Virus record (IMG/VR): IMGVR_UViG_3300025030_000275
Location: 1-37,149 of that record
Direction: 5' to 3' (one strand)
Length of the DNA stretch: 37,149 nucleotides
DNA from: a virus
Shown here: piece by piece, positions 3,342-37,149 of the stretch
How positions within the stretch are numbered: the stretch's first letter is position 1
How the letters are laid out: every line of letters starts with the position of its first letter
The notes under the pieces: model-generated
What the model was told of the DNA's origin: nothing
The model's input: only the letters and a program-made list of their open reading frames with translations
Databases searched by the model: none
Translations under genes and position numbers: made by a program

Positions 3342-3442
3342 GAAAACATTTGACATCCACGCAAATCAAGCGTAGTTGAGTAGCCTACTGAGTAACGAGT
3401 GAGTATCATTTGTGCTCACTGGACCACCGCGAGGTAGGCCCG
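3342..3442 (+). other. Non-coding gap with small palindrome and weak promoter-like site
   Basis: This gap follows the terL remnant. It holds TTGACA at 3350-3355 with a poor -10 candidate (TAGTTG, 3373-3378, 17-base spacer) and an 11-base palindrome, AGTAG-C-CTACT, at 3379-3389. The promoter match is weak at -10. An internal promoter here would make sense for restoring downstream expression after the insertion, but this is a guess. Confidence 0.25.
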
Positions 3443-3607
3443 TTGAAAAAGCTCCTTTCTTCCTTCGATCTGCAAGACCTCCAGCTCGTATCCGGCATTG
3501 CCATGCTCGGGTACGGGCTCTTTCTCGTTTATCCCCCTGCTGCTTTTATTGTTGTTGGTTCGCTGCTGCTATCGCCCTTCCTGCTCTCAGCGTGGAGGGC
3601 TAAATAA
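3443..3607 (+). CDS. Small membrane protein between terminase and portal
   Basis: The likely start is TTG at 3443, preceded by GAGG about nine bases upstream; a TTG at 3410 in the same frame would add 11 residues. The 54-residue product is mostly hydrophobic, with two predicted membrane segments (roughly residues 14-30 and 33-48) joined by a short YPP turn, and ends in the basic WRAK. The stop overlaps the portal start by one base (TAATG), so the two are translationally coupled. No family is recognised. A small two-pass protein could be a holin by shape, but the location in the head module is not typical for lysis genes, so the role is left open. Confidence 0.5.
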   Translation: MKKLLSSFDLQDLQLVSGIAMLGYGLFLVYPPAAFIVVGSLLLSPFLLSAWRAK

Positions 3608-9023: not shown

Positions 9024-9368
9024 ATGGCAGTTGAAGGAGACATTCATACGATCCTTGCCGCGCTTGTTTCCAACCGGTGCTATGCGCTGGTTGCTCCAGA
9101 ATCGGCGGCGCGCCCGTACATCGTTTTCCAGGTCATAAGCAACCCGACGCTGAACGATCTGGATGGTGACGTGGGGATCAGTAACCGCCGCTTCCAGGTC
9201 GACGTGTGGGCCGACACCTACGGCGCAGCCAAGGCCCTCGGCAAAACCGCCGCAACCTCATTGACCGCCGCCGGACACTTGAAGCTGGGGGATAACCCCG
9301 ACCAGCGCGACGCGGAAACGAAAACTTTTTGTGCCAGCTCGGATTATAGCGTTTGGGGGGAGTCGTGA
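9024..9368 (+). CDS. Tail terminator-like protein, DUF3168 type
   Basis: This 114-residue protein has the DUF3168-like pattern: an N-terminal helix with DIHTILAAL, then RPYIVFQVIS, a short acidic turn, and RRFQVDVWADTYGAAKAL, with a final strand around the cysteine near the C-terminus. Proteins of this type cap the tail tube and join it to the head. It follows the head closure gene by three bases and overlaps the next start (GTGA). Confidence 0.8.
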   Translation: MAVEGDIHTILAALVSNRCYALVAPESAARPYIVFQVISNPTLNDLDGDVGISNRRFQVDVWADTYGAAKALGKTAATSLTAAGHLKLGDNPDQRDAETKTFCASSDYSVWGES

Positions 9369-9622
9369 CAGAGCGCAAACAGCGGATGCTGACGGATGCC
9401 GACGTGGAGGCAATAGCCGACGCGCTGAAGACCCATTCGGCCTGCAACATGGGCCTGACGCCGGCAGAAGTCACCACGCTCAAGCGGTTCCTTGGCGCTT
9501 TTAACAAGGCGGCGGGGATCGTCGGGACGCTGGTGTTGACGGCCATCGTTGCCGGAATGATCGCCATGTTCACTAAAGGATTTTGGACCACACTGATTAC
9601 CGGCGCCAAGGCTGCAAAATAA
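9365..9622 (+). CDS. Single-pass membrane protein in the tail operon
   Basis: The likely start is GTG 9365, overlapping the previous stop. The 85-residue product has an acidic soluble N-terminus (LTDADVEAIADALKTH), a lone cysteine, then a membrane segment (about residues 50-72, GIVGTLVLTAIVAGMIAMFT) and a short basic tail. Similar small proteins are common in phage tail operons and usually have no assigned role. A holin role is conceivable from the shape but not supported by its location. Confidence 0.6.
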   Translation: MTERKQRMLTDADVEAIADALKTHSACNMGLTPAEVTTLKRFLGAFNKAAGIVGTLVLTAIVAGMIAMFTKGFWTTLITGAKAAK

Positions 9623-20293: not shown

Positions 20294-20728
20294 ATGACCA
20301 GGGAAGAAGCCTGCAAAAAACTACACGAAGCGGCCCGCGCAGAGCTCGGCGTCCAGGAAGTAGCGGGAGACGGCGACAACCCGCGCATCATCGAGTACCA
20401 CAGCTTTACCACTCTCCGCGCTCGTAAGGACTCCGTGCCGTGGTGCTCAGGATTTGCAAACTGGGTGAACAACGCGGCAGGGTTCAAGGGTACGGGCTTT
20501 GCCAATGCCCGATCCTTCCTCAACTGGGGCGTCAAGCTCGACAAGCCTATCCTCGGCTGCGTCGTAGTTTTGAAGCGCGGCAAGCCTCCTGCTGGCCATG
20601 TGACGTTCTGCGACCATGAGGACATCTCTAACGGGATAGTGAGGTGTGTCGGGGGGAACCAGGGAAACGCCATCAAGGTTTCCCGCTACCCCGTATCGGA
20701 CGTCCTCGGGTACAGAGCGCCGGCATGA
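20294..20728 (+). CDS. Endolysin, TIGR02594/CHAP-like cysteine peptidase
   Basis: This 144-residue enzyme should cut peptidoglycan cross-links during lysis. It has the family pattern of TIGR02594-type or CHAP-related proteins: an N-terminal helix, LGVQEVAGDGDNPRI (19-33), the catalytic Cys in PWCSGFANWV (about residues 49-58), an Ala/Arg-containing SFLNWG, and the catalytic His in PAGHVTFC (about residues 99-106), then GGNQGN. No signal peptide or membrane anchor is seen, so it needs a holin or another export route. GAGGTG eight bases upstream is the ribosome binding site. It overlaps the lipoprotein gene by four bases. Confidence 0.85.
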   Translation: MTREEACKKLHEAARAELGVQEVAGDGDNPRIIEYHSFTTLRARKDSVPWCSGFANWVNNAAGFKGTGFANARSFLNWGVKLDKPILGCVVVLKRGKPPAGHVTFCDHEDISNGIVRCVGGNQGNAIKVSRYPVSDVLGYRAPA

Positions 20729-20964
20729 GGGCGCTCGTCCTCCTGGCTCTCCTCCTCCCCGGCTGCGCCACTCTCGGCCAGCGGGAGTCCAGCGTCACCC
20801 TCCCCTCGGGCGAGGTCTATATGGTCCGGTGCCAGCATGACGCAACGCTGGAGTTCAAGCAGGGAGAGACAGCGATTAAAGTGAACAACCAGGGCAAGTC
20901 CGGGCCGATAGACTCGCTGATTTCGTTGCTGACGCTCGGGATTGTGCGCTCAGCCGAAAAGTAA
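20725..20964 (+). CDS. Small lipoprotein of the lysis cassette
   Basis: The ATG at 20725 overlaps the endolysin stop (ATGA). The 79-residue product begins MRALVLLALLLPGCATLG, a signal peptide with lipobox LPGC and Cys14 as the acylated residue. The mature part (about 65 residues) has one further Cys and a C-terminal hydrophobic stretch (LISLLTLGIV). The position resembles that of outer membrane spanins (Rz1-like). However, it is not proline-rich and no inner membrane Rz-like coiled-coil gene is visible nearby, so the spanin role is uncertain. Confidence 0.7.
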   Translation: MRALVLLALLLPGCATLGQRESSVTLPSGEVYMVRCQHDATLEFKQGETAIKVNNQGKSGPIDSLISLLTLGIVRSAEK

Positions 20965-20973
20965 GGGGGCATC

Positions 20974-21138
20974 GTGGAAGATCATGAAAGGGTAAGGCTG
21001 CTGGAGTCGTACCAGGAGGGCACTTACTGCTCCTACGCGATGGAATACTGCGCTTGCGGTAACAACGTCCGCGAGTGTGCCAAACGTAACCCTGTCGAGT
21101 GCCGCAACTGCCGGCAGAAGAATGAAAGGGGGGGGTGA
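20974..21138 (+). CDS. Cys-rich 54-residue protein
   Basis: A frame starting with GTG 20974, with AAGGGGG about five bases upstream, encodes 54 residues. It has seven cysteines in the order SYQEGTYC, YCACGN, RECAKR, VECRNC, near the pattern of a double zinc knuckle. It lies between the lipoprotein and the phospholipase-like gene with only short gaps (9 and 3 bases). No family is recognised. The abundance of cysteines and the tight gene packing support its being real. Confidence 0.5.
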   Translation: MEDHERVRLLESYQEGTYCSYAMEYCACGNNVRECAKRNPVECRNCRQKNERGG

Positions 21139-21141
21139 GCC

Positions 21142-21537
21142 GTGAGCAAACCACAACTATTCGCATCTGAAAGTTATCTATCCGCATCGCCGGAAGTTCG
21201 CGCCCAGGTGGTGAACGGATGCGGGCCGGGTGGGTGGAAGTTTGACATCATCCCCGACAAGTTGCTTGGGCTGAGCATCGCCGCGACCTGCGACATCCAC
21301 GATTGGGATTATGCCGTGGGACAGACCGTAGCAGACAAGGACGCCGCCGACAGGGTATTCCTCAACAACGCCCTGCGAACCATCGAGGCGGCAAGCGGCT
21401 GGTGGAATCGGCGCTACACCGTCCGGAACGCGCGGCGATGCATGGCATGGGGCTACTACCAGGCCGTTCACTGGTTCGGCGGGCCTGCGTTCTGGCAGGG
21501 GAAGAACTCGCCGGCAAATCTAACCGTAACCGTTTAA
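21142..21537 (+). CDS. Phospholipase A2-like protein in the lysis cassette
   Basis: This 131-residue protein starts with GTG and has no signal peptide. Residues 25-31 (NGCGPGG) resemble the calcium-binding loop of phospholipase A2, and residues 50-57 (CDIHDWDY) resemble its catalytic CxxHDxxY helix with the His-Asp pair at 53-54. ADKDAADRVFLNNAL (64-78) could supply the second catalytic Asp, in the place where secreted enzymes have CDxxAA. A final helix with MAWGYYQAVHWFGGPAFW is aromatic and could touch membranes. It is the last gene before the strong terminator of the late operon. The enzymatic role is inferred from motifs only; small phage proteins with this signature are usually annotated as hypothetical. 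Confidence 0.6.
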   Translation: MSKPQLFASESYLSASPEVRAQVVNGCGPGGWKFDIIPDKLLGLSIAATCDIHDWDYAVGQTVADKDAADRVFLNNALRTIEAASGWWNRRYTVRNARRCMAWGYYQAVHWFGGPAFWQGKNSPANLTVTV

Positions 21538-21561: not shown

Positions 21562-21600
21562 CCCGCTGCAGGCCCCCTCCCCCTGTAGCGGGCTATTTTT
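21562..21600 (+). terminator. Strong intrinsic terminator of the late operon
   Basis: CCCGCTGCAGG (21562-21572) pairs with CCTGTAGCGGG (21582-21592) over 11 bp with one G-U pair and a 9-base loop. CTATTTTTA follows. It lies 24 bases after the last late gene and 96 bases from the end of the convergent repressor gene, so it ends the rightward late transcript. Confidence 0.9.
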
Positions 21601-22411: not shown

Positions 22412-22636
22412 ATGACCAAGGAAAGATCGGTGCAGTTCATGTTCTGGTTCACGATTCTCTTCATCATCGGCGGGGTGGGTGCCTGCCAGCTGGCCAAGCC
22501 GCTCCACGCTTACGACGAGCGACGCCTCGCTGCCGACATGGCAGAGGCTTTGGCGCAAGAGGAGGCGGACGCGAAGCTTGCCGCTGAACTCTTTGTGGAG
22601 TGTAACGCCAGGGCGCGCAAGGCGGTGCAACAATGA
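22412..22636 (+). CDS. Small early membrane protein
   Basis: This 74-residue protein follows a strong ribosome binding site (TAGGAGGTG). Residues 10-25 (FWFTILFIIGGVGACQ) form one membrane segment. The rest is an Ala/Glu-rich helix (ADMAEALAQEEADAKLAAEL) that would lie outside the membrane and could self-associate. The N-terminus MTKERS is short and charged. Early membrane proteins of temperate phages often act in superinfection exclusion, but there is no direct sign of that here. The stop overlaps the next start (ATGA). Confidence 0.6.
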   Translation: MTKERSVQFMFWFTILFIIGGVGACQLAKPLHAYDERRLAADMAEALAQEEADAKLAAELFVECNARARKAVQQ

Positions 22637-36675: not shown

Positions 36676-36905
36676 GCGTGGAGATCGAGAAGGTCGTGGG
36701 AGTAGTGGTCTCTGCCAAGGATTTTGTCCACGGGCTCAAGCCGTGGGATGTTGCCGAATTCGCTAACGCTGTGGCAGAACGCTTTGACCAAGAATATGGT
36801 ACTCGTGCCGATATTGCTGATTCGTTTGCTGACGCTTTGAGCGAGCAGGCAGTAAGATTTCTGGCTGAAGTTGTTACTAGCTACCACGGGCGGAACCCGC
36901 GCTAG
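36672..36905 (+). CDS. Small phage protein, unknown
   Basis: ATG 36672 overlaps the previous stop. The 77-residue product is helical and acidic (KPWDVAEFANAVAERFDQEY, DIADSFADALSEQAVRFLAE). No domain is recognised. The overlap and normal base composition support translation. Confidence 0.5.
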   Translation: MSVEIEKVVGVVVSAKDFVHGLKPWDVAEFANAVAERFDQEYGTRADIADSFADALSEQAVRFLAEVVTSYHGRNPR

Positions 36906-36969
36906 AGTCGGTTTAACGGAACCAAGCTCTGCGGAGCAGCAGCGCCGGGTTAGGCGCAAGGAGGAGTAG

Positions 36970-37149
36970 ATGGATATGAAGGCGTGGGAACCGATTGATG
37001 AACTCCAGGTTCAAGCCCTGGCCAGCGACTGCAACTACTTGAAGCCGGTGGAGGATCTTGAACCCGGCGAAAGTCAGCGGTACGGGTGCACCGTTATCGG
37101 GTTCTGTCTGGACGATCCCGAAGGGTGCCGCAGCATCATGGATATCACG
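36970..37149 (+). CDS. Partial CDS at the right edge
   Basis: An ATG at 36970 with AAGGAGGAGTAG directly upstream opens a frame that runs off the window after 60 codons. The visible part begins MDMKAWEPIDELQVQALASD and continues acidic, with two cysteines (YGCTVIGFC) and a third (EGCRSI). No family is recognised. The strong ribosome binding site and the absence of stops support a real gene. Confidence 0.6.
   Translation, partial: MDMKAWEPIDELQVQALASDCNYLKPVEDLEPGESQRYGCTVIGFCLDDPEGCRSIMDIT

Follow-up and report, generated by a model that had tools for sequence, protein, structure and literature searches.

A phospholipase A2-like protein at the end of a phage lysis cassette: a candidate for the outer-membrane step of lysis

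How do phages without a recognisable spanin open the outer membrane of their hosts? Spanins have not been identified in 91 of 677 phage genomes (PMC6139136), and the exchange of a phospholipase A2 (PLA2)-like protein for a structurally unrelated lipase among sister phages, described below, makes this question directly testable. The locus that raises it lies in a virus genome or near-genome of 37,149 bases (IMG/VR record IMGVR_UViG_3300025030_000275), a stretch of DNA that we refer to as the window. The interval 20725-21537 holds three plus-strand genes, coding for a small lipoprotein, a Cys-rich protein of 54 aa and a PLA2-like protein, and the original prediction was that the last of these could replace or assist spanins in lysis. 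We consider it fairly probable that the window protein is a calcium-dependent PLA2 of the lysis cassette, which would carry out the outer-membrane step in place of spanins or together with them.

The plus strand of the window runs from terminase, head and tail genes to a tail-fibre-like gene, which is followed by the genes for the endolysin, the lipoprotein, the Cys-rich protein and the PLA2-like protein. The predicted endolysin (20294-20728, plus strand) belongs to the family TIGR02594 (NCBIfam, E 5e-34), which we take to be of the papain-like peptidase/amidase type. Its stop codon overlaps the start codon of the small lipoprotein, family A (20725-20964, plus strand), in the sequence ATGA; the lipoprotein has the lipobox LLLPGC and was recognised by a membrane scan and by homologues in related cassettes. 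The soluble Cys-rich protein (20974-21138, plus strand) has homologues of 58-76% identity in the lipase cassette of L094 and the DUF1353-like cassettes of L101/L103, and the PLA2-superfamily protein of 131 aa (21142-21537, plus strand), assigned by motif, profiles and predicted fold, begins with a GTG start codon. An intrinsic-terminator-like stem-loop followed by TATTTTT (21562-21592, plus strand; 11-bp stem, folded at -20.5 kcal/mol) and a repressor gene on the opposite strand beyond it agree with the claim that the PLA2-like gene is the last late gene. A clear holin was not found in the window; two ORFs with membrane segments, 9353-9622 and 3410-3607, are located in the midst of head and tail genes. 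The window's final 245 bases (36905-37149) are 99.2% identical to positions 252-496 of a Mu-like PLA2 phage contig (L009) from metagenome 3300025030, which reflects either recent exchange or assembly overlap.

The motif residues of the protein are N25-GCGPGG-31, C50-D-I-H53-D54-W-D-Y57 and a second aspartate, D70, of which N25-G31 would form the calcium loop and H53/D54 the catalytic pair, with C27, C50, Y57 and D70 as further predicted key positions. On re-reading, the GCGPGG and CDIHDWDY motifs with their PLA2 spacing, the candidate second Asp and the numbering given for them all proved correct. When the window was codon-shuffled 200 times and all six frames were read, the full motif occurred 0 times and C..HD..Y alone 0.055 times per shuffle; the PLA2 motif is beyond chance. 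Relatives were collected from viral (55) and cellular (18) sources, and the family alignment and profile comprise 45 sequences. Invariant in these are G26, C27, G28, D70, N76 and V109, none of which was part of the search pattern; C50, H53, D54 and Y57 are also invariant, but the search pattern demanded these four residues, which inflates their conservation between loci. C27 and C50 presumably occupy the position of the C29-C45 disulphide of animal secreted PLA2s, three residues before the catalytic His. At the N-terminus (MSKPQLFASESYLS), neither a hydrophobic segment nor a signal peptide was found by membrane scan. In Prevotella-type elements (L060-L062, L077-L080), a divergent relative has the motifs GCGCQG and CCIHDDDY.

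Searched as a single sequence, the protein matched the Streptomyces PLA2 1faz at E 0.005, and the 45-sequence profile matched 1faz at E 2.1e-7 and 4aup at E 7e-5 in the PDB. When the 45 members were scanned singly, 41 matched DUF1353 (best 2.9e-5), 34 matched PF09056 (best 1.4e-4) and four matched group XII PLA2. The AlphaFold2 model calculated from the 45-sequence alignment (pLDDT 92.1, pTM 0.85) places H53/D54 in helix 47-59 and D70 in helix 63-83, two consecutive long helices. The group XIV PLA2s 4aup, 7ygk, 1faz and 8k1w lead its PDB matches (Z 9.9, 8.3, 7.8 and 7.8), and a clear gap lies between these and the next, unrelated match (Z 5.6). Foldseek gave a probability of 1.00 for 4aup and 1faz with modest E-values (best 1.3e-3), and weak fold matches to densovirus VP1 were also obtained. 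The comparison with PLA2 folds that had been proposed as a check thus returned the PLA2 helix pair and PLA2s as the top four matches, and the sequence profiles, the conservation and the predicted fold all bear out the suggested PLA2-like identity.

Membership of an existing Pfam family was rejected, as the protein scores 13.9 bits against the curated cut-off of 29.4 for PF09056 and 12.8 bits against that of 22.5 for DUF1353 (PF07087). An alignment of nine phage DUF1353 proteins does match the window family (hhalign 96.2%, E 2.1e-9), and this link matters because the DUF1353 protein TtaP has demonstrated PLA2 activity, which was shown in 2024 and is lost with D85A (PMC11525133). Profile, fold, invariant residues and the link to DUF1353 and TtaP together argue that the window protein is best called a PLA2-superfamily enzyme of its own separate family near DUF1353 and that, judging from sequence and model, it is very probably enzymatically active. 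PHROG matches were to phrog_6098, a family without function, and to phrog_1158, labelled 'tail assembly chaperone' and matched by 38 of the 45 members. We rejected this label, as phrog_1158 appears to be a misnamed DUF1353; Campylobacter phage CPX gp47 bears both labels. Proteins of phrog_1158 (e.g., L115 2857-3297) hence appear to be PLA2-related, and many phage records may hold the same misannotation.

The genomic neighbourhoods of the relatives connect the family with lysis. An endolysin of a recognised class lies within 1.5 kb of the PLA2 gene in 29 of 75 loci, a set that is only partly de-replicated, and five classes are represented (GH108, amidase_2, amidase_3, M15 peptidase and TIGR02594). 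The endolysin gene is mostly found directly 5' of the PLA2 gene, often with a 4-base ATGA overlap, and small lipoproteins are frequent neighbours. Six further loci have an unclassified protein at the endolysin position. The 'FRKII' protein of L008-L010, L018, L020 and L041 was rejected as a counted endolysin, and these loci were left out of the endolysin-linked count, because a PHROG scan of a single member gave no match. The protein L008 3963-4556, which had no PHROG match, and its relatives show the motif FSDPDG.RSGKSGWSFG.SQFD at the endolysin position of Mu-like phages, possibly marking an undescribed endolysin family. PLA2 members without a nearby recognised endolysin occur in Halodesulfovibrio prophages (L049, L051, L073, L075) and in L048, where the gene lies between tail-fibre and sheath-type genes; in L001 and a Thiohalocapsa phage the member lies amid tail genes. 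On Vibrio chromosomes (L071, L072; 7971-8417), a PLA2-family gene stands between RidA-like and LysE-like genes with no adjoining phage genes.

A search with the window endolysin retrieved three phages with 88-89% identical endolysins (L084-L086; metagenome series 3300025030 and 3300025010), each with a different enzyme type from the window's at the same place. In L085 and L086, a class-3 lipase with an intact GHSLGG (PF01764, E 1.8e-16) follows the endolysin and overlaps its stop codon; in L084, a DUF1353-like protein does so, the family of which aligns with DUF1353 (hhalign 96.0%, E 4e-9). The DNA of L084 and L085 can be aligned to the window in the endolysin and repressor flanks, but not in the intervening segment. 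Lipoprotein A and the Cys-rich protein also precede the lipase (L094, L096) and the DUF1353-like protein (L103), and a lipoprotein A homologue is present in a cassette that ends in PLA2 (L009). Likewise, lipoprotein B precedes PLA2 (L008, L009) and lipase (L097), and lipoprotein C accompanies PLA2 in L008, lipase in L097 and a DUF1353-like protein in L102. In a more distant endolysin relative (L090), the endolysin is followed by an Rz gene (DUF2514, E 3.9e-24), which we take to be Rz-like, with an Rz1-like lipoprotein ORF inside. The last cassette slot is taken either by spanins or by one of three proteins of lipid-hydrolase type, and this is the strongest argument for a shared envelope-breaking role.

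Together with the endolysin-linked loci, this exchange in one slot supports the proposed membership in a lysis cassette. It also bears on the small lipoprotein, which had been described as not Rz1-like: its composition is indeed not Rz1-like, but a mere annotation gap does not account for it, as the lipoprotein recurs across such cassettes. The single further viral locus obtained by searching with lipoprotein A (L083) has an endolysin and lipoprotein A without a recognisable lipid enzyme. The Cys-rich protein (20974-21138) is kept beside lipoprotein A in PLA2, lipase and DUF1353-like cassettes. We do not claim the L084-family protein as an active PLA2, since the position of the second Asp appears to be Ser and only its DUF1353 link is significant; its model (pLDDT 77) had no match in the PDB and the protein had no direct match to the window family.

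Does a spanin nevertheless exist in these phages? All plus-strand ORFs of the window with 40-260 aa and a membrane segment were scanned, and no Rz-like/Rz1-like pair, overlapping or embedded, was found, in line with the earlier remark that no Rz-like coiled-coil gene is visible. The window protein, being soluble, is itself no two-component spanin. A membrane segment and a coiled coil in Rz-like shape are combined in one scanned ORF only, which lies in the early operon (22412-22636, 74 aa) and has an N-terminal membrane segment, a possible lipobox, a coiled-coil-like tail and no PHROG function; it might code for an inner-membrane spanin that has escaped recognition. Downstream of the PLA2 gene, about 20 Mu-like loci have homologues of Mu gp25, gp26 or gp27 (profile E 4e-9, 8e-38 and 1e-31; gp24 weak, 0.0045), which places PLA2 between the endolysin position and the gp24-gp27 homologues, that is, in the slot of Mu gp23. 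Mu gp23 and gp23.1 are proven spanins and gp25 is a proven endolysin-release factor (PMC9239132).

These observations leave room for a different division of labour, in which the PLA2 merely speeds or completes lysis by clearing debris, freeing virions or reducing re-adsorption, and the outer membrane gives way to osmotic pressure alone or to a spanin-like protein that has escaped recognition. Spanins are divergent and readily overlooked (compare the 91 genomes mentioned above; PMC6139136), and the ORF 22412-22636 would suit such a role. In a Helicobacter prophage, moreover, a DUF1353 gene adjoins the lysozyme gene and Rz-like and lipoprotein genes are also present, so that PLA2-type proteins can coexist with spanins and replacement is not universal. 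We nonetheless regard a helper function of this kind as unlikely, as the Mu-like PLA2 loci have no homologue of Mu gp23, L012 has only a two-TM holin-like ORF and PLA2 between its M15 endolysin and the gp24-like gene, and a spanin PHROG was matched, weakly, by just two of 84 neighbouring membrane proteins. What speaks against a lysis PLA2 for the outer-membrane step are the members away from recognised endolysins, the Helicobacter coexistence, L083, the ORF 22412-22636 and TtaP, the deletion of which left the envelope of its bacterium without a phenotype (PMC11525133); the members among tail genes and the Helicobacter prophage count against full replacement in particular. The suggestion that the enzyme could replace or assist spanins is supported by position, through the Mu gp23 slot and the Rz/Rz1-like genes of L090, and replacement is a putative function.

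Two further readings place the enzyme outside lysis. Parvoviruses use viral PLA2 domains for entry, and the window protein could likewise be part of the virion or its tail and, similar to the PLA2 of parvovirus VP1, cut the outer or inner membrane when the DNA is delivered. The members amid tail genes in L001, L048, the Halodesulfovibrio loci and the Thiohalocapsa phage and the weak fold matches to densovirus VP1 are compatible with this; many placed members, however, overlap or adjoin endolysins and not baseplate genes, and a lipase replacing PLA2 in a lysis cassette with the same lipoproteins fits lysis better, which makes an entry enzyme highly improbable. Least probable of all appears a moron or defence gene that hitch-hikes beside the lysis genes and remodels the membranes of the infected cell or lysogen, be it for superinfection block, competitor killing or signalling. 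Cargo genes are commonly located at the end of a late operon, and the Vibrio copies lie outside recognisable phage genes. TtaP, too, serves a non-phage locus (PMC11525133). Cargo would hardly explain why the same slot is filled by other lipid enzymes or spanins, nor the recurring coupling to several endolysin classes with ATGA overlaps.

Returning to the preferred reading of a lysis PLA2, the computed motif, fold, cassette position and enzyme swap are the basis from which we infer catalysis, its switching by calcium and redox state, the site of action and the replacement of spanins. Lacking a signal peptide, the enzyme would be synthesised late and stay in the cytoplasm, where its two key cysteines would be reduced, and it should for this reason be idle or harmless before lysis. 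Once the membrane is opened at lysis by holin release, it would reach the periplasm together with the endolysin; there calcium would be available and C27-C50 could oxidise. PLA2 would then split the phospholipids on the inner side of the outer membrane bilayer, its inner leaflet, to yield lysophospholipid and fatty acid, and phospholipids of the already depolarised inner membrane would probably be digested as well. This cleavage would destabilise the last barrier after the peptidoglycan has been cut. In the sister phages, a class-3 lipase or a DUF1353-like protein would have the same job, and the lipoprotein may anchor or guide PLA2 to the outer membrane, a guess from their co-occurrence. More generally, we tentatively entertain the idea, which is somewhat less likely to be true than not, that interchangeable lipid hydrolases (the PLA2 family, class-3 lipases and DUF1353-like proteins) with a small lipoprotein stand in place of spanins. 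If true, this would explain part of the Gram-negative phages without a findable spanin. The PLA2-type protein as last gene of the lysis operon, and a different lipid-splitting enzyme at its place in close relatives, hint that in some phages the host's outer membrane may be digested instead of being fused by spanins.

Three other lipid-splitting enzymes assigned to phage lysis have folds unrelated to PLA2, namely alpha/beta in LysB, GDSL in the GDSL lipase and patatin in phage WO. LysB of mycobacteriophages is a lipolytic lysis protein (PMC5707550), which resembles the window PLA2 as a lipid-splitting enzyme of phage lysis and differs in its target, mycolyl-arabinogalactan. A GDSL lipase is found in the lysis cassette of a Pseudomonas syringae phage (PMC12173070), and a lysis cassette with a patatin-type phospholipase was proposed from genomics for phage WO (PMC9203015). 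In Pseudomonas phage Cygsa01 (L114 2872-3704), a DUF1353 gene overlaps the endolysin gene, and a GDSL lipase gene lies two genes upstream. The earlier remark that no established lysis pathway is known to use the PLA2 class can stand, yet TtaP, phage WO and LysB are precedents for the idea. Already known are the PLA2 annotation of a phage homologue, DUF1353 as a PLA2 and lipid enzymes known or proposed in phage lysis; new here is that, within a single cassette, PLA2 and lipase exchange positions with one another and with spanins. Neither this exchange nor a proposal of PLA2 for spanin was found among the listed hits in the literature searched, which lay mostly outside subscription journals and bioRxiv.

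Among the known systems, group XIV secreted PLA2s (Streptomyces 1faz, Tuber 4aup; PF09056) share with the window protein the fold, the catalytic His-Asp, the second Asp and the C-terminal YYxAV..FG helix, whereas the window protein lacks a signal peptide, has a different calcium-loop sequence and stays below the Pfam cut-off. The direct homologue in Vibrio phage 1.097.O (Schitoviridae; 36% identity) is called 'phospholipase A2 domain protein' after an InterPro domain; it differs in position, being preceded by a lipoprotein-like coil gene and flanked by terminase and head-completion genes, and its record proposes no role. Spanins (Rz/Rz1, Mu gp23/gp23.1) share the post-endolysin slot with PLA2 in Mu-like and window-like phages, but they act as a periplasm-spanning membrane-fusion complex, in contrast to the soluble enzyme of the window. 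TtaP and DUF1353 (PF07087) are, like the window protein, small and cytoplasmic-looking with an HD...Y...AD signature and a profile-profile match; they differ in a TDxAS-P type motif where the window family has NGCGPGG, and in lacking the C27/C50 pair. TtaP is related to prophage proteins and its locus includes a phage-type muramidase (PMC11525133), a place for which a lysis PLA2 would offer a working model.
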